A stretch of DNA of 52,350 nt from Cellvibrionales bacterium (GTDB taxonomy: Bacteria; Pseudomonadota; Gammaproteobacteria; Pseudomonadales; GM7GCV1). The DNA lies in NCBI GenBank assembly GCA_014323765.1, contig JACONM010000011.1, forward strand, positions 61,860 to 114,209, read 5' to 3'. This document shows positions 261 through 16,114 of the stretch, in pieces. The translations under genes were made by a program, and so were the position numbers. The notes under the pieces were generated by a model. That model did no database searches. It saw only the letters and a list, made by a program, of their open reading frames with translations, and had not been told where the DNA came from. Position 1 is the stretch's first letter. Each line of letters opens with the position of its first letter.

Positions 261-397
261 CCCTCCCACCAGCCCTTGACCATGCGAGCAGTTAGCAGTA
301 ATATGTCGGCTAGAGTGACATGTTCAAAGTTTGGTAGTGTCCTACGGACTAGGTGCGGCTATCATTCTTTTTTAATACGATTTAGCGGTAATAAGTC

Positions 398-1171
398 ATG
401 GATATAGCAACGATCTTGCAGAGCCAATACTTGATTGGCCTGTCATCACTGGCGTTTGGGATTATCGGGACAGTGATCGTAAATGCTTTATGCAATAAAC
501 GGTCATTGTTCACGTATAATGTACGACATTCCCAAATCGGATTGTCTGCCCATGATTCAATTTATGGCACAGTCCAATTAAGCTGGAACAATCAACCTGT
601 AGCCAGACTTTATCTTTCTACCGTTGAGTTACATAACGCAAGCTCAAAAGATTTTGATTCTGTGATAGTTCGTATCTTTTCAAATAATACGATCTTATTA
701 ACAGAAAAAGCTCATATAGTGGGTACGACACGAAATCTTGAATTTAGCGATGACTATAAGAATAAAATTGCAGTCCAATCAGGGCAAGAACCCACCGATG
801 AACAATTTGATCTGTATAGACATCAACGAGATTATATTATACCCATAATGAATCGAGGAGAAAAAATCAAAATAGAAGTTTTGAATACTCCCGAACCCAA
901 TGAAAATCCAGTAATAAATTTAGATTTACTACATAAAGGGGTTCGTTGTAAATTTAAAATAGACCAACCATTATTTATGGGTGAACCACAGGAAACCTCA
1001 GCACGGGTAGGTTCAGTCTTGGGGTTGGTAGTAGTTTTAGTACTGCTTTATTTTGTCAGTAATATATGGGTAGCTGGAATAACAGCATATTTTGTGGGCT
1101 GGGCAGCTTTATTTGTCGGTGCCTTCGCAATTAAAATATTTAAAAAATTGAGATACGGGCTGTCGGATTAA
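398..1171 (+). CDS. Membrane-anchored protein of unknown function
   Basis: 257 residues. One hydrophobic segment lies near residues 12-32 and two more near 206-250. The middle (about 40-200) is a soluble, beta-rich stretch with conserved-looking LYLSTVELHN and MNRGEKIKIE phrases. I recall similar hypothetical proteins in other bacteria, but no function is known to me. The gene is clearly AT-richer than the core genes, which suggests horizontal transfer. The DUF3800 gene follows after 24 bases, so the two probably share a transcript. The central domain may face the cytoplasm or the periplasm; topology cannot be settled by eye. Confidence 0.75.
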   Translation: MDIATILQSQYLIGLSSLAFGIIGTVIVNALCNKRSLFTYNVRHSQIGLSAHDSIYGTVQLSWNNQPVARLYLSTVELHNASSKDFDSVIVRIFSNNTILLTEKAHIVGTTRNLEFSDDYKNKIAVQSGQEPTDEQFDLYRHQRDYIIPIMNRGEKIKIEVLNTPEPNENPVINLDLLHKGVRCKFKIDQPLFMGEPQETSARVGSVLGLVVVLVLLYFVSNIWVAGITAYFVGWAALFVGAFAIKIFKKLRYGLSD

Positions 1172-9352: not shown

Positions 9353-10132
9353 ATGCCCGCCATCCAAAACGAAACCATCTGGCTCACTGGTGCCAGCTCC
9401 GGCCTCGGTCTAGCCCTCTGCCACCAATTAGCCGCGCAAGGCAACCGGCTGATCATCTCCGCTCGCAACACTGCCGCCCTCCATGCCTTAGCCGCCGAAC
9501 ACCCCGGCCTCATCCCCCTACCGCTCGACATCGCCGACCCAAAAGCCGTAACCGCCGCCAGCCAGCAACTGCAACAACACACCGACCACCTCGATCGCCT
9601 CATCTTAAACGCCGGCACCTGCGAATACCTCGACCCCGCCCGCCCCGACCCCGCACTAATGACCAAAATCGCCGAAATCAATTACCTCGGGCAAATGCAC
9701 TGCATCGCCGCCAGCCTAGACTTGCTCAAACAAGCCAAAGCCCCGCACATTGTCGGCATCAGCTCACAGGTCATCCACGCCGCCTTCCCCCGCGCCGCCG
9801 CCTACGGAGCCTCCAAAGCCGCCATGGACTACGCCCTACGCTCTCTCTGGCTGGATTTAGCCCCCCACAATATCGATCTCACCCTAATCCGCCCCGGCTT
9901 CGTCGACACCCCCCTCACCCGCCGCAACCAATTCGCCATGCCCTTTTTAATGTCCGCCGACCGCGCCGCCCAACGCTGCCTCCGCGCCATCGCCCGCCGC
10001 AAACACTGCTACAGTTTCCCCAAACGTCTGCGTCTGCTGTTGCGCCTCCTCAACGCCTGCCTGCCCGCCCTACGCCTAAAACTACTGTCCGGCCCCGCCC
10101 CCCCAAGCTCAACGGACACCCCCAAGCGATGA
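9353..10132 (+). CDS. Short-chain dehydrogenase/reductase
   Basis: 259 residues. NAD(P)-binding TGASSGLG at 12-19, NAG at 86-88, catalytic Ser137/138 in GISSQ, and Y151-x3-K155 (YGASK), followed by RPGFVDTPLT. This is a complete classical SDR with an Arg-rich hydrophobic tail (about 215-245) that may contact the membrane. The stop overlaps the next gene's ATG (ATGA), showing translational coupling. In the equivalent cluster of other gammaproteobacteria an SDR sits in the same place; it probably oxidises or reduces a hydroxyl or keto group on a lipid. Substrate unknown. Confidence 0.88.
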   Translation: MPAIQNETIWLTGASSGLGLALCHQLAAQGNRLIISARNTAALHALAAEHPGLIPLPLDIADPKAVTAASQQLQQHTDHLDRLILNAGTCEYLDPARPDPALMTKIAEINYLGQMHCIAASLDLLKQAKAPHIVGISSQVIHAAFPRAAAYGASKAAMDYALRSLWLDLAPHNIDLTLIRPGFVDTPLTRRNQFAMPFLMSADRAAQRCLRAIARRKHCYSFPKRLRLLLRLLNACLPALRLKLLSGPAPPSSTDTPKR

Positions 10133-11397
10133 AAATCGCCATCATCGGCAGCGGCATCGCCGGCCTAACCTGCGCCCACCTCCTACACCGCCAGCACGAC
10201 ATCGCCCTGTTCGAGAAAGCCGAGCGCATCGGCGGCCACACCGCCACCATCGATGTCCGCCACCGCGGCCAAAACTACCCCATCGACACCGGCTTCATCG
10301 TCTATAACCACCGCACCTACCCACACTTCGTCCAGCTACTAAAAAACCTCGGCGTGCCCGCGCAAGAAACCGAAATGAGCTTCGGCGTCAGCACCGCAGA
10401 CGGCAGCCTAGAATACGCCAGCACCAGCCTAAACAGCCTATTCGCCCAACGCCGCCGCCTGCTCAGCTCCGCCCATTGGCGCATGCTCGCCGACATCCTG
10501 CGCTTTTACCGCACCGCCCGCGCCGATCTCGCCCAAGATCGCCTACCCCAAACCACCACCCTAGGCGACTATTTGCAACAGGGCGGCTACGGCCACGCCT
10601 TCCGCGAACACTTCCTATTGCCCATGGGCAGCGCCATCTGGTCCACCTCCACCGCCCGCCTGCTGGATTTTCCGCTACAGTTTTTCCTCCGCTTCTTCCA
10701 CAACCACGGCCTGCTCAACATCGCCCGCCGCCCGACATGGCGCACCCTGCAAGGCGGCTCCAAATCCTATCTGCAACCGCTCACCCGCGACTTCGCCGAC
10801 CAAATCCACCTCCGCGCCAAACTCCGCACAATCCACCGCCACGCCGACTCCGTCACTCTAGATTTTGCCGACCGCCCCCCGCACCACTGCGACCAAGTCA
10901 TCCTCGCCTGCCACAGCGACCAAGCCCTCGCCCTACTCGCCGACCCCAGCACCGCCGAGCGCGAGATCCTCAGCGCCATCCCCTACCACACCAGCGAAGC
11001 CATATTGCACCACGACTACAGCATCCTGCCGCGCAATAAAACCGCCTGGGCCAGCTGGAACTACCGCCTCAGCACCACCCCCGGTGCCCCGCCAATAGTC
11101 AGCTATAACATGAACCGCCTGCAACGCATCGACTGCCCCGACACCTTCATCGTCACCCTAAACGCCACCGCCCAGCTAGACCCGGCCAAAATCATCGGCC
11201 GCTACCGCTACGCCCACCCCCAATTCAGCCCCGCCGCCACCGCCGCCCAACACCGCTGGCCAGAAATAAACGGCACCAACCGAACCTGGTTTTGCGGTGC
11301 CTACTGGCGCAATGGCTTCCATGAAGACGGCTGCTGGAGTGCCCTCCGCATCGCCCGCAAACTGGGCACCGACTGGCCCGGCCCCCTCACCCCATAA
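10129..11397 (+). CDS. FAD-dependent amine-oxidase-like oxidoreductase
   Basis: 422 residues. An N-terminal dinucleotide-binding motif GSGIAGL (7-13) ends in FEKAERIGGHT, then IDTGFIVYN, the arrangement seen in the COG2907 group of flavin amine-oxidase-like proteins. The C-terminal FCGAYWRNGFHEDGCWSALR is also characteristic. These proteins occur next to DUF1365 and CFA synthase genes and are thought to act on fatty acyl chains rather than amines. It may desaturate or oxidise the lipid modified by the CFA-like enzyme. Overlaps the SDR gene by 4 bases; DUF1365 follows after 12. Confidence 0.9.
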   Translation: MKIAIIGSGIAGLTCAHLLHRQHDIALFEKAERIGGHTATIDVRHRGQNYPIDTGFIVYNHRTYPHFVQLLKNLGVPAQETEMSFGVSTADGSLEYASTSLNSLFAQRRRLLSSAHWRMLADILRFYRTARADLAQDRLPQTTTLGDYLQQGGYGHAFREHFLLPMGSAIWSTSTARLLDFPLQFFLRFFHNHGLLNIARRPTWRTLQGGSKSYLQPLTRDFADQIHLRAKLRTIHRHADSVTLDFADRPPHHCDQVILACHSDQALALLADPSTAEREILSAIPYHTSEAILHHDYSILPRNKTAWASWNYRLSTTPGAPPIVSYNMNRLQRIDCPDTFIVTLNATAQLDPAKIIGRYRYAHPQFSPAATAAQHRWPEINGTNRTWFCGAYWRNGFHEDGCWSALRIARKLGTDWPGPLTP

Positions 11398-11409
11398 CCC
11401 CATGACCCC

Positions 11410-12294
11410 ATGATGCGCCACCCCATGCCAAACCTAGACAGCGCCATCTATGAAGGCTATCTGCGCCACCGCCGCCACCGCCCACGCCCGCACCGCTTCA
11501 CCTACCCCGTCTACATGCTCTACCTCCGCCTAGACAAACTCCCCCAAGTCTGGGCACAAAGCCGCCTCTGCTCCCCCCACCCACTGGCCCCCATCCGCTT
11601 CGTACGCAGCGACTATTTTGGCCCGCCCAACCAACCGCTAGACCAAGCCGTACGTCAAACAGTCGCCAAAACCCTCGGCACCGCCCCCAGCGGCCCCATC
11701 TGCATGCTCACCAACCTGCGGCATTTTGGCCACCGCAGCAACCCGCTCACAGTCTATTATTGCTTTGACGAACACCGCCGCCTGCATGCCCTGCTATTGG
11801 AAGTCACCAACGCCCCCTGGGGCGAGCGGCACCACTATGTGCTGGCGACTGAACCACACCAGCGCACCCTGCGTACCGAGTTTGCCAAAGAACTGCACGT
11901 CTCCCCCTTTAACCCGATGAATATGCGCTACCGCTGGCACAGCACCACCCCCGACCGCCGCCTCGTCATCCACATGCAAACCCACCTCACCACCACAGAA
12001 CCCAGCAAACCAGACCCCCCGACAAGGGGAGTTCCCCCTCTCGAAGCCCCCCTGACAAGGGGAGTTTGGGGGGTTGGATGTGGGGAAGTTGGATGTGGGA
12101 GGTCCGTCTTCGACGCCTCCCTAGTCCTACGCCGCCACGCCCTAACCCCGCGCAACCTCCGCCGCACCTATTGCCGCTACCCCTTTATGACCTGGCGCGT
12201 CAGCAGCGCGATCTACTGGCAAGCCTTCAAACTATTCCTAAAAAAAACCCCGCTCCACCCCAAACCCCCGCCGCCAACCCCCAACCCTAAATGA
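11410..12294 (+). CDS. DUF1365 family protein with an in-frame repeat insertion
   Basis: 294 residues; the family is usually near 250-260. Conserved stretches are present: SAIYEGYLRHRRHRPRPHRF near the start, TNLRHFGHRSNPLTVYYCFD, EVTNAPWGERHHYVL, FNPMNMRYRW and, after the insert, FDASLVLRR and CRYPFMTWRVSSAIYWQAFK. Between IHMQ (about 190) and FDASL (233) lie some 35 extra residues encoded by the repeat at about 12013-12103. The frame stays open, so the protein may still be made with a Gly/Pro/Cys-rich loop. DUF1365 proteins accompany CFA synthases and FAD oxidases; their reaction is unknown. The start at 11410 has no clear ribosome site; ATG 11425 is an alternative. Confidence 0.88.
   Translation: MMRHPMPNLDSAIYEGYLRHRRHRPRPHRFTYPVYMLYLRLDKLPQVWAQSRLCSPHPLAPIRFVRSDYFGPPNQPLDQAVRQTVAKTLGTAPSGPICMLTNLRHFGHRSNPLTVYYCFDEHRRLHALLLEVTNAPWGERHHYVLATEPHQRTLRTEFAKELHVSPFNPMNMRYRWHSTTPDRRLVIHMQTHLTTTEPSKPDPPTRGVPPLEAPLTRGVWGVGCGEVGCGRSVFDASLVLRRHALTPRNLRRTYCRYPFMTWRVSSAIYWQAFKLFLKKTPLHPKPPPPTPNPK
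12013..12103 (+). repeat. G/C-run repeat element inside the DUF1365 gene
   Basis: Two direct copies of a core GACAAGGGGAGTT (12021-12033 and 12054-12066), each preceded by a run of C; the second is followed by a run of G, making C6-x-G6 palindromic arms. It ends with a tandem duplication of GTTGGATGTGGG (12073 and 12088). Such mobile palindromic repeats normally sit between genes. Here it is inside a coding sequence without breaking frame. A diverged relative lies at 29514-29550. Confidence 0.7.
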
Positions 12295-12306
12295 GCCGCA
12301 ATTAAA

Positions 12307-13533
12307 ATGCCCCACCCCCTAAAACTATCCGCCACCGAAAAAGCCGCCCTCGCCTTCGTCCAGCGCGTATTAAGCCGCCTGCAACAGGGCCACCTACGCC
12401 TGATCATCGGCGATACCGAACACCACTACGGCGAACCCGCCGCGACAGCCCGCCTCCACGCCCAAGCGCAAATCCACGATGGCCGCGCCCTCACCGCCAT
12501 CCTGCGCCAAGCCAGCATCGGCGTCGGCGAATCCTACATGCAAGGCCACTGGAGCACCCCCGACCTCACCGCCCTAGTCCGCCTAATGGTCCTCAACCTC
12601 GCCGCCTTCAACCGCTTGGACCACGACCGCCCCTGGCCCCTGCGTCTCCTACACCGCCTAAGCCAAGTCCGTCCCCGCAGCAACCGCCGCGCCGCCCGCC
12701 GCAACATCGCCGCCCATTACGACCTCAGCAACGACTTCTTCGCCCTTTTCTTAGACCCGACCATGACCTATTCCTGCGCCCTCTTCCCCCGCCCCGACTC
12801 CTCGCTGGAACAAGCCTCCATCCACAAAGTCAAAACCCTGTGCGACAAATTGCAGCTAACCGAGCGCGACCACCTGCTAGAAATCGGCACCGGCTGGGGC
12901 TTCCTCGCCCGCTACGCCGCCCAACACTACGGCTGCCGAGTCACCACCACCACCCTCTCCGAACAGCAATACCAATACGCCCGCCAGCAAATCCGCGCCC
13001 ACAACCTAGAAAACCAGATCCAAGTCCTACGCCGCGACTACCGCGACCTAACAGGCACCTACGACAAACTGGTCTCCGTCGAGATGATCGAAGCCGTCGG
13101 CCACCGCCACTTCGACCGCTACTTCGCCACCTGCGACCGCCTGCTGAAACCGCACGGCCTCATGGCCCTGCAAGCCATCACCATCGCCGACCAACACTAC
13201 CAACGCGCCACCCGCTACCGCGATTTCATCCAAAAACACATTTTCCCCGGCGGCGGCCTCCCCGGCCACACAGTCATCGCCGACTGCCTACGCCGCAAAA
13301 CCACTATGCAAATCCTAACCATGCAAGACATCGGTGCTGACTACGCCCGCACCCTAAAAATCTGGCGGCGCAACTTCCTAAACCGCCTCGATGAAGTGCG
13401 CAAACTCGGCTTCGATGATTCGTTTATCCGCATGTGGGAATACTATCTCTGCTACTGTGAAGGCGGCTTCCTAGAACGCTCCATCAGTGCCACCCAAATG
13501 CTAATCGCCGCCCCCAACTGGCACCCCAGCTAA
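12307..13533 (+). CDS. cfa: Cyclopropane-fatty-acyl-phospholipid synthase family enzyme
   Basis: 408 residues. The N-terminal part (about 1-130) is the CFA lipid-binding domain, including IGVGESYMQGHW. Then AAHYDLSNDFFALFLDPTMTYS marks the SAM methyltransferase domain, with SAM loop LEIGTGWGF near residue 195 and YDKLVSVEMIEAVGH, the conserved catalytic-core segment with the acidic residue that binds the bicarbonate site region. The end MWEYYLCYCEGGF is also family-typical. It methylates or methylenates unsaturated acyl chains of membrane phospholipids. Given the FAD enzyme and SDR upstream, the final product could be more complex than a cyclopropane ring, for example a methylated or furan-type acyl chain; that is inference. 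Confidence 0.92.
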   Translation: MPHPLKLSATEKAALAFVQRVLSRLQQGHLRLIIGDTEHHYGEPAATARLHAQAQIHDGRALTAILRQASIGVGESYMQGHWSTPDLTALVRLMVLNLAAFNRLDHDRPWPLRLLHRLSQVRPRSNRRAARRNIAAHYDLSNDFFALFLDPTMTYSCALFPRPDSSLEQASIHKVKTLCDKLQLTERDHLLEIGTGWGFLARYAAQHYGCRVTTTTLSEQQYQYARQQIRAHNLENQIQVLRRDYRDLTGTYDKLVSVEMIEAVGHRHFDRYFATCDRLLKPHGLMALQAITIADQHYQRATRYRDFIQKHIFPGGGLPGHTVIADCLRRKTTMQILTMQDIGADYARTLKIWRRNFLNRLDEVRKLGFDDSFIRMWEYYLCYCEGGFLERSISATQMLIAAPNWHPS

Positions 13534-13556
13534 AATCTCGGCAAAGGAAAACTAAA

Positions 13557-14327
13557 ATGCACCTCTATCTCAAACCGCTTCTGAATCTGTTCGACGACCC
13601 GCCCCGCGAAGACGGCATAGGCAAATGCATCGGCACCATCAACACCCATCTAGGCGCAGGCTTAGGGCTCGCCCTCTTAGCAAACAAAATCGGCAAATCC
13701 TTCACCCTAATCTATGCGCCCTGTAAAGAAGACCACGACCGCGGCGGGCGCGGCAAAAGCCTAGACACTTGGGCGCAAGCAACGCTTGACGGCCAAGACC
13801 GGCTGCTGCAAATCGAAATAAAAAACTGGAGCGTCACCGCGCCGGGCGTACTCCGCTTGCCAGTAAATACCGAGCAAACACCCCAGCAGATCCAAGCTCA
13901 CCGCAAAAAACAATGGGAGTACTATTTTCACAATTTCAACGATGGTAAAACCCATATCCCAGCGGCAAACAGCATCAATAAACTGTTGCGCCGCATGGTT
14001 TTACCGCCAAACTTTACCGGGCAATACCGCAAACAAATAACGCCACTGCTAATCCTCTGGCCCACCATGCACCCAGAAGGCAAAAGCGAAGCCCTGTTTC
14101 CGGTCAAGCTCCCAGACCCAAAAATCTGCGAAGAACGGGTACAAAATTTTGGCGGCTTTACCCAATTCTGGTTCTTTTCGATGTCCGCCCATATCCGCAC
14201 CCTACACCAACAAAACATCAGCGCAATAAATGTAGATGAAGCGATCCTGCGATCCCCCAAGCAGGCGGTCGAAAAATTAAACATCGACATCGCCACTTGG
14301 CTTAAACGATTTTTCAATGGCCGCTAA
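13557..14327 (+). CDS. Unknown protein, possible PD-(D/E)XK nuclease
   Basis: 256 residues; start at 13557 with AAAGGA upstream. It is not a normal member of the lipid cluster. A strand-like LLQIEIKNWS (E87-x-K89) after D70 and D81, with E18 upstream, resembles the core of PD-(D/E)XK nucleases, where an E-x-K pair coordinates Mg2+. Later there is LLILWPTMHPEGK and a Trp/Phe-rich FGGFTQFWFFSMSAH. No second nuclease or methylase gene is adjacent. Codon use is less extreme than in its neighbours. It lies 23 bases after cfa and 46 bases before DUF2878, so it could be expressed with them. The nuclease idea rests on one motif only. Confidence 0.6.
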   Translation: MHLYLKPLLNLFDDPPREDGIGKCIGTINTHLGAGLGLALLANKIGKSFTLIYAPCKEDHDRGGRGKSLDTWAQATLDGQDRLLQIEIKNWSVTAPGVLRLPVNTEQTPQQIQAHRKKQWEYYFHNFNDGKTHIPAANSINKLLRRMVLPPNFTGQYRKQITPLLILWPTMHPEGKSEALFPVKLPDPKICEERVQNFGGFTQFWFFSMSAHIRTLHQQNISAINVDEAILRSPKQAVEKLNIDIATWLKRFFNGR

Positions 14328-14373
14328 AGAAAGCCGTCCCCAAGCCGCAAGACACCCCGGAGAGACCGAACTC

Positions 14374-14916
14374 ATGAAAAACCTCCCCCGCCTGCTATTA
14401 AATTTCGCCCTCTTCCAAACGGGCTGGGCCCTCTGCGTATTCGCCGGCAACCTAGCGGCCCTGCCCTACACCGTCGCCGCGTTAGGAATTCACGCCCGCT
14501 GGATACTGCGCACTCGCCGCGAATGGCAGCTCATCGCCGGGCTCGCCGCCGCCGGCAGCGGCTGGGACTACCTCCTCGCCACCCTCGGGCTAATCCACTT
14601 CGCCGGCACCGCCATCGCACTCGGCCCCCTCGCCCTCACCCTCGCCATCCCCCCCTGGCTCGCCTGCCTATGGCTGCTGTTCGCCACCACCCTCAGCCAC
14701 ACCTTCGCCTGGCTCCACCGCCGCCTACCGCTCGCCGCAATCCTCGCCGCCCTCAGCGCACCCCTCACTTATTTAGGCGGCGCCGCGCTCAACGGCTCCG
14801 AAATTCCGAACCCATGGCTCGCCGCCGCCGCCATCGCCAGCGGCTGGGCCATCCTCTTCCCCGCCGGCCTCTTCGCCGCCCGGCGCATCGCAAATCAGGC
14901 AACCCCCCATGCCTAA
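14374..14916 (+). CDS. DUF2878 membrane protein
   Basis: 180 residues from ATG 14374, with GGAG at 14359-14362; a longer frame from 14317 would overlap the previous gene and is unlikely. The protein is almost wholly hydrophobic with about five to six membrane segments. LLLNFALFQTGWALCVFAGN at the start, RREWQLI and the central GSGWDYLL match the DUF2878 pattern. DUF2878 genes accompany CFA/DUF1365/FAD oxidoreductase clusters in gammaproteobacteria. The protein may move or present a lipid in the inner membrane; the activity is unknown. It overlaps the next gene by 8 bases. Confidence 0.85.
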   Translation: MKNLPRLLLNFALFQTGWALCVFAGNLAALPYTVAALGIHARWILRTRREWQLIAGLAAAGSGWDYLLATLGLIHFAGTAIALGPLALTLAIPPWLACLWLLFATTLSHTFAWLHRRLPLAAILAALSAPLTYLGGAALNGSEIPNPWLAAAAIASGWAILFPAGLFAARRIANQATPHA

Positions 14917-15790
14917 CCCCCTATCCGTCGCCCTATTATTGGCAACCTCCCCGCTCTGGGCCGCAATCGCCACCGCCGCACCGCCAAATGCCCCCGCCGC
15001 CCTCGATATTGACAAAATCGCTGCCATCGGCGAAGCCCACGCTCCAGACGGCGGCCCGCTACTCTATCGCGAATACCACAGTTACAGCCCAGACGGCATC
15101 CACCATCATGTCCTCTACCGCGACTCCACCGACCAACCCCTAACGGAAAAAACCATCTCCTACGCCACGGGCCCCGCCACCCCCACCTTCACCCAACAAA
15201 ACGTGCAAACCGGTCGCCGCCTACAAGTGCTCTGGAACAAACCACCAAAAAACGCCAGCCGCCCAGCCCTGCAAAACGAACCGGCGCAAAACGCTACCCC
15301 AGATAAAAACAACCGCGCCAGCACCGCCAACACCGGCAATAAAACGACTAAACCCAGCCCGATTAAAGCGGGCACCGCCCAAACCAACCCCAAATCGCCC
15401 GCCACCCTGCGCGTCCTCGACAGCCGCCGAAAGACCGCCAAAACCCTCACCCCCAGCGGCCAATTCCCCCTCGTCATCGATGCCGGCTTCGACCCCTTCA
15501 TCCGCGCCCACCTACCCCACCTGTTAGCCGGCGAACAACTCACCTTCGAATTCCTCTTCGCCAAACGCGCCCGCCTAATCCGCCTCAAAGCCCAAGCCCA
15601 GCCCTGCAAAGACACCCCCCAAAACCACTGCATCCTCATCAAACCACACAGCCGCCTAATCCGCCTAATCGCCCCCCCACTCCGCCTAGAATACGACCAA
15701 ACCCCCCGCCTAATCCGCTACCGCGGCCCCTCCAACCTATCCGACCACCAAGGCAAAGGCAAACAAGTAGAAATCCACTACCAATACTAA
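14909..15790 (+). CDS. Secreted protein of unknown function ending the lipid cluster
   Basis: 293 residues. Signal peptide about 1-23 (ends IATA). A short N-terminal beta domain has YREYHSYSPDGIHHH. A Thr/Asn/Lys-rich linker (about 125-165) follows, then a beta-rich C-terminal domain with LVIDAGFDPFIRAHLPHLLAGEQLTFEF and RLIRYRGPSNLSDHQGKGKQVEI. The C-terminal pattern (a G-x-SN-x-x-D-x-x-G motif) recalls a family of uncharacterised periplasmic proteins in Pseudomonas relatives. Other clusters of this type have a DUF3833 lipoprotein in this slot, which this is not. It may bind or carry the modified lipid, but nothing in the sequence proves it. Confidence 0.75.
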   Translation: MPNPLSVALLLATSPLWAAIATAAPPNAPAALDIDKIAAIGEAHAPDGGPLLYREYHSYSPDGIHHHVLYRDSTDQPLTEKTISYATGPATPTFTQQNVQTGRRLQVLWNKPPKNASRPALQNEPAQNATPDKNNRASTANTGNKTTKPSPIKAGTAQTNPKSPATLRVLDSRRKTAKTLTPSGQFPLVIDAGFDPFIRAHLPHLLAGEQLTFEFLFAKRARLIRLKAQAQPCKDTPQNHCILIKPHSRLIRLIAPPLRLEYDQTPRLIRYRGPSNLSDHQGKGKQVEIHYQY

Positions 15791-15817
15791 GCCCCCGCCC
15801 CGCACCGAAGGTCCCCG

Positions 15818-16114
15818 CTACCCCGCCCCCGCCGCCCGCAAAATAGCGGCGTATTGGGCATGGTGGCGATGTTCGGCGATTAGCGATAATAGGCTCTGCC
15901 CGGCCGGATTAGCGGCATTCAAATCCCGCCCGTCCGCCTTGAAAAATTCCACAAAAGTGGCAAAGTTTTGCGCATTCATACCGCGATAGGCGCGCTCCAG
16001 ACAGTGAAAATCCGCATTCACCCCGGCCGGCGGACGGGCCGCCAAAAATCCACGCACCCGCGCATCATCAAAAACCTCGCCTAATACCTTTTTTTTATCC
16101 TTTTTCAACGCCAT
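15818..16114 (-). CDS. PA4642-family small protein
   Basis: 98 residues. [20 protein letters not shown] at the start, then PPAGVNADFHCLERAYRGM, match the small protein annotated as the PA4642 family in Pseudomonas. No catalytic residues are known; the sequence is soluble and mostly helical with an Asn-rich ankyrin-like DLNAANPAGQSLLSLI stretch. Its ATG overlaps the gatB stop by one base (TGATG), so it is the last gene of the gatCAB transcript. Role unknown. Confidence 0.82.
   Translation of the reverse strand: MALKKDKKKVLGEVFDDARVRGFLAARPPAGVNADFHCLERAYRGMNAQNFATFVEFFKADGRDLNAANPAGQSLLSLIAEHRHHAQYAAILRAAGAG

Follow-up and report, generated by a model that had tools for sequence, protein, structure and literature searches.

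A dispersed palindromic repeat probably inserted in frame in a DUF1365 gene of a Cellvibrionales bacterium

How does a palindromic repeat come to lie inside the open reading frame of a conserved protein, and can the protein live with it? The question is raised by a DUF1365 gene in a stretch of 52,350 nucleotides from a Cellvibrionales bacterium (the window), for which an initial annotation had described some 35 in-frame residues, encoded by a repeat, between two conserved parts of the protein. The frame is kept, as that annotation had stated: the open reading frame (11410-12294, 294 aa) has PF07103 as its single match in a Pfam profile search (E 3.6e-73), and this match runs end to end, with residues 13-288 (276 residues) set against 235 profile positions. 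The genes on either side provide an operon context (Table 1). No solved structure for the DUF1365 protein was found by sequence.

Table 1. Coordinates of the insert, its parts, the surrounding operon and the second gene with an internal repeat copy
Feature	Position	Strand	Basis
FAD-dependent amine-oxidase-like gene, upstream, operon context	10129..11397	+	PF01593, E 2.5e-23
DUF1365 gene, 294 aa, insert-bearing	11410..12294	+	ORF; PF07103 match; 44/48 conserved columns kept
Insert, about 35 codons without counterpart in homologues	11995..12103	+	protein alignment
Family-alignable part of insert	~12012-12103	+	BLAST against further copies in the genome
Palindromic core 1 (C run, GACA loop, G run; sense orientation)	12012..12033	+	direct repeat and family consensus
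Palindromic core 2, same frame, 33 nt downstream of core 1	12045..12066	+	direct repeat and family consensus
TGGGGGGTTGGA module	12067..12078	+	consensus after last core
GTTGGATGTGGG, first copy	12073..12084	+	sequence; same module in C2:1594-1652
GTTGGATGTGGG, second copy, 15 nt (5 codons) after first	12088..12099	+	sequence; C2:1594-1652 match
CFA-synthase-like methyltransferase gene, downstream, operon context	12307..13533	+	PF02353, E 1.7e-89
CcmF gene with in-frame 34-residue repeat copy	L095 441-2216; C7:1461	-	homologue alignment

We aligned the protein with 30 homologues. Of these, 29 belong to other genomes of the order (L054-L082, the genomes for which the homologue search retained a locus), and the last, L083, is that of Marinomonas profundimaris. 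Between the alignment columns of residues 191 and 232, the DUF1365 protein has 40 residues, against 4-14 in all 30 homologues (4 or 5 in 24 of them and 7-14 in the other six; 9 in the same-genus homologue, L064), which bears out the extra residues that had been described. Similar residues in homologues without the repeat, named in the initial annotation as the finding that would speak against an insertion, were seen in none of the 30. The flanks are well preserved: of 48 columns in which the homologues reach 85% identity or more, the insert-bearing protein keeps 44. A structure model of poor quality (two sequences, mean pLDDT 55.9, pTM 0.57) predicted strands at residues 184-193 and 231-244, with residues 195-230 below pLDDT 50. 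Together with the homologue range of 4-14 residues, the modelled strands suggest that the repeat sits in a loop already variable in length among homologues. This loop is predicted to be disordered in the insert-bearing protein, and the insertion would probably not abolish function.

The two cores with C and G runs noticed at the outset were both recovered. The sequence GACAAGGGGAGTT occurs at 12021-12033 and again 33 nt (11 codons) later, at 12054-12066; C runs precede it and G runs follow, and allowing up to two mismatches it has 4 matches in the window against 0.81 expected. As an exact 13-mer, GACAAGGGGAGTT occurs twice genome-wide, both times in the DUF1365 insert; it is a private variant, the family core being GACAAGGGGGGTT. 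Downstream of the cores, the TGGGGGGTTGG part of the TGGGGGGTTGGA module comes after the core in most family copies. The reported duplication of GTTGGATGTGGG stands insofar as two copies are present, but it probably did not arise by local duplication, since the copy at C2:1594-1652 has a TTGGATGTGG doublet in the corresponding position. Gly and Pro are abundant in the insert, and its codon score of -0.60 per codon, against +0.21 in the rest of the gene, is as expected of sequence that has not evolved as protein. A G-to-A change common to both cores (GGGGAG) is synonymous in DUF1365. A coding-specific variant was considered and discarded: GGGAGTT is also present in an intergenic copy (C17:83788), and the change is therefore no evidence of selection.

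The insert belongs to a large family. Searching the genome (1.88 Mb in 40 contigs, 91.6% complete) for other copies, as the initial annotation had suggested, returned 82 BLAST matches to a 121-nt stretch, itself included. The best other copy is 83% identical over about 88-90 alignment columns, and the one at C2:1594-1652 is 92% identical over 60. Allowing one mismatch, the core CCCCTTGTCAGGG (given on the strand opposite to the gene) has 69 + 85 = 154 matches in the genome, against 1 + 1 = 2 for the reversed control. A chance repeat is ruled out by both counts, and a purely local duplication by the genome-wide occurrence of the family. Read from the copies in the direction of the gene, the family consensus is CCAGATCGAAGCCCCCCTGACAAGGGGGGTTTGGGGGGTTGGTCTGGAAGG, single or in tandem, with a TGA stop in one of the three sense frames and no stop in any of the three antisense frames; stops in the consensus thus do not explain why antisense copies were not seen inside genes. 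The core match at C5:12632 stands without the family flanks and probably arose by chance. Separately, a weak match lies at a gene start within the window (8930-8890, minus strand; 78% over 41 nt, E 2.9e-4), which may be a decayed copy or chance and was left out of the copy counts.

Among the genomes sampled, only this one carries the repeat in bulk. The pattern CCCCTTGTCARGGGG occurs 98 times in it and is absent from 386 of 390 genomes of the order, where three besides this one have 1-2 occurrences, and from 395 of 398 genomes of the phylum, where two besides this one have one each; the pattern was matched exactly, a search in which more divergent relatives of the repeat family would go unseen. 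No convincing match was obtained in the one further genome of the genus or in three from its family (G001-G004), the single 21-nt match in G002 having an E value of 0.2, and viral contigs gave no match to a 21-nt repeat consensus. Within the sampled genomes the repeat thus appears lineage-specific, and since it is limited to one of them, it is probably recent.

To place the copies relative to genes, we mapped 38 stretches, selected for holding copies, with a codon-usage gene caller and the core pattern, which gave 132 cores in 75 clusters. Seven of the 75 lie wholly inside a called gene (score at least 20), against a called coding fraction of 0.66, in line with the earlier remark that such repeats usually stay between genes; 2 of the 75 are internal to a conserved gene. 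All 43 clusters with several cores hold them in a single orientation. Counting genes within 1 kb of a cluster, the upstream gene (in the sense direction of the repeat) is co-directional in 49 clusters and opposite in 3. Of the other 23, 7 lie inside genes, every one in the gene's own sense; in others a downstream gene is the only neighbour (co-directional in 10, opposite in 2), and 4 have no gene in range. Pfam searches added one co-directional neighbour (an M23 peptidase, L108) and one opposite neighbour (L106), and confirmed the opposite neighbours at L103, beside mraW, and L119, beside rapZ; with L106 added and the bare core at C5:12632 dropped, three exceptions to the orientation remain. 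Among 20 upstream genes that were hand-picked for a Pfam check rather than drawn at random, all match a family on the called strand. The median distance, read from sorted lists, is 37 nt to the upstream stop versus 142 nt to the downstream start. This strict orientation relative to genes is an unusual trait of the family. On contigs C10 and C17 both repeat orientations occur, beside genes of both directions, but the G+C skew is so bound up with gene direction that replication and transcription cannot be told apart as the cause.

The coding strand of genes near the repeats is strongly C-rich on these two contigs (L158-L169), where the mean G+C skew is -0.23 within 300 nt of a core and declines to -0.09 beyond 5 kb. 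In the window, over 10001-16000, the skew of the plus strand reaches -0.38 at 10001-12000.

Repeat-coded residues are not restricted to the DUF1365 protein. The internal copy in CcmF reads PPDKGGLGGL, in a frame different from that of the DUF1365 copy (PLTRGVWGVG). It is missing from all 19 aligned homologues, the same-genus one included; of 37 genomes, these are the 19 for which a locus other than that of this CcmF gene was kept. Two Pfam domains lie in CcmF, one on each side of the insert. Five further proteins have repeat-coded C-terminal tails past their last Pfam domain, namely CysG (L090), a Trm112-like protein (L099), a DHAD/EDD-like protein (L111), GAPDH (L115) and a TANGO2-like protein (L102), and the TGA of the core serves as stop codon of six called genes (L085, L091, L098, L112, L114 and L120). 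L100, a called ORF with a repeat near its end, was not counted as a tail, since its composition is unusual and its Pfam matches are partial. The internal copy in CcmF and the tails strengthen the proposal of the initial annotation that a repeat may here have become protein sequence, a reading that is supported at the level of sequence. Two of the six genes ending on the repeat, L112 and L120 (ends of C27 and C2), are near-identical amidase gene ends with the same repeat, one of them at a contig end; this may reflect a duplication, or a single locus that was assembled twice.

None of the movers searched for accompanies the family: Y1_Tnp (RAYT, PF01797), RVT_1 (PF00078) and DDE_Tnp_1 (PF01609, the only DDE family searched) had no match in the 91.6%-complete genome, and as MITE features neither element ends nor a target-site duplication could be defined. 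Within 25 nt of cores, the tags GTAG and CTAC occur in 3 and 4, and CGTC and GACG in 1 and 3, of the 75 clusters, respectively. These frequencies are below the control fractions of 0.21-0.27, and without the GTAG and CGTC tags the repeat is not filed with the REP superfamilies that they define. The copies likewise failed as intrinsic terminators, as most run on as TTTGGGGGGTTGG with no U run after the hairpin in the sense direction, and a few have A runs before it. At gathering score, Rfam matched only one tRNA in the window and in L085, L088 and L091. The single-core copy in CcmF folds better than 198 of 200 shuffles, and weak fold z-scores were obtained for three longer stretches (-0.90, -1.50 and -1.57).

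Palindromes within bacterial genes are an already known phenomenon. The sections of PMC10969869 on Rickettsia palindromic elements (RPEs), citing Ogata et al. 2000 and 2002, describe elements of about 150 bp in ten families that lie in frame inside unrelated protein genes as well as in intergenic DNA, and in R. conorii ORFs contain nearly half of the 44 copies; RPEs are also treated in parts of PMC2635572. Like RPEs as portrayed there, the present repeat is a dispersed palindrome with many copies per genome, lies in frame in unrelated conserved genes and is lacking at these places in homologues (30 of 30 for DUF1365, 19 of 19 for CcmF); with regard to fold compatibility, the insert falls between strands predicted by a weak model. 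In contrast to RPEs, the present clusters are G+C-rich and only 2 of 75 are internal to a conserved gene, and the likeness drawn here is one of description. REPs, according to the passages of PMC3733652 that deal with their placement, are found mainly downstream of genes, often supply the stop codon of a flanking ORF and are in some cases intragenic. Like the present family, they are high-copy palindromes placed mostly outside genes, to their 3' side, with some copies in genes and termini that give stops. They differ in that the present repeat has no GTAG or CGTC tag and no Y1 transposase found in a 91.6%-complete genome, and in that REPs, in the same passages, are mostly head-to-head dimers, whereas our repeat is tandem in one orientation. 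The enterobacterial RU-1, RU-2 and RU-3, as outlined in PMC2759123, are intergenic mobile repeats whose open frames also enter annotated genes, a likeness by description; RUs are MITE-like units of 103-168 bp. SPRITE of Streptococcus pneumoniae, as summarized in PMC3049150, is likewise a small hairpin repeat clustered near gene 3' ends; it is, however, A+T-rich with a terminator-like U-rich tract, whereas the present repeat is G+C-rich and mostly without one. Compared with this literature on the phenomenon rather than on the repeat sequence, the repeat is a new family of a known kind, and it appears to work like protein-coding palindromes.

The explanation that we consider very probable is that a lineage-specific dispersed palindrome entered the gene in frame, in the loop between what are predicted to be two beta strands, and that its roughly 35 residues are translated there as a flexible passenger. 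Family membership, absence from homologues, an open frame and intact conserved flanks can all be read from the sequences, and we infer that the repeat spread and that its insertion is expressed and tolerated. A small non-autonomous palindrome, mobile or copied, would spread through the genome and survive mostly behind stop codons. Rarely it would land inside a gene, where length and frame must fit, and the survivors would be insertions in tolerant loops or at C-termini, with the gene living on with repeat-coded residues. Either of the two stop-free sense frames could be carried, PLTRGVWGVG in DUF1365 and PPDKGGLGGL in CcmF being the two; the third has the TGA. Alternatively, the gene might be a young pseudogene, its function destroyed by the insertion and its frame open only for lack of time. 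Confinement of the repeat to one genome in all sampling, and an insert still 83-92% identical to other copies, would suit such a recent event; we nevertheless find it improbable, as the 44 of 48 conserved columns are kept over both halves together, the operon neighbours are intact, the loop varies in length among homologues (4-14 residues) and CcmF retains intact Pfam domains on both sides of a similar 34-residue copy. It is very improbable that the assembler or binning spliced the repeat into the gene. A mis-join would link two loci, yet the sequences on either side of this insert follow each other within a single gene, whose operon is unbroken, and CcmF independently shows the same, with the frame kept in both genes, even though the genome is fragmented (40 contigs) and several copies lie at contig ends (C27:4-51, C7:9-71). 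It is extremely improbable that the stretch is an old low-complexity loop of the DUF1365 protein without any inserted repeat: homologues do vary modestly in length there (4-14 residues), but none of the 30 exceeds 14 residues, and the stretch matches many other copies in the genome at the DNA level.

Insertion of a spreading palindrome is compatible with a further proposal, which concerns the repeat itself, namely that it is a functional RNA element of 3' ends (transcript end, stabiliser or antisense barrier) kept behind genes by selection, its copies in genes being accidental. The 37-nt median distance to the upstream stop versus 142 nt to the next start, the co-directional upstream gene in 49 clusters versus 3 opposite, and the folding of the single-core CcmF copy (better than 198 of 200 shuffles) all point this way. 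We regard it as a tentative and on balance unlikely proposal in view of the weak z-scores of the three longer stretches (-0.90, -1.50, -1.57), the fact that most copies, read in the sense direction, have no T-run behind the hairpin, and the absence of the repeat from all sampled relatives, which a selfish repeat of recent origin would be expected to show; REPs, too, favour 3' sides in the passages of PMC3733652 cited above, function not being proven in each case. The orientation lock raises the question of how such repeats spread. More speculatively still, the family could represent an undescribed orientation-locked element that copies itself behind stops, in a single direction with respect to transcription and without the usual transposases, perhaps via a transcript or a transcription-coupled single strand, and that writes protein ends, with TGA as a stop and the two open frames as tails or loops.

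With an insertion of the palindrome as the preferred explanation, the locus brings an apparently recently expanded family to the few bacterial palindromes known to enter reading frames. CcmF is a clean second case in a different frame, and several proteins take their last residues or their stop from the repeat. As only one genome was found to have the family, and the empty sites can be seen at the protein level in homologues, it would lend itself well to studying how much random peptide from a repeat can be tolerated by a conserved protein.

Two observations concern the genes beside the repeats. RTX-type calcium-binding repeat proteins (PF00353) are encoded just upstream of copies at four loci (L088, L090, L109 and L117), two of these proteins having sulfatase domains. 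At L085, a DarT1-associated NADAR antitoxin-like gene (329-1057, plus strand; PF22397, E 2.4e-76) adjoins repeat copies.
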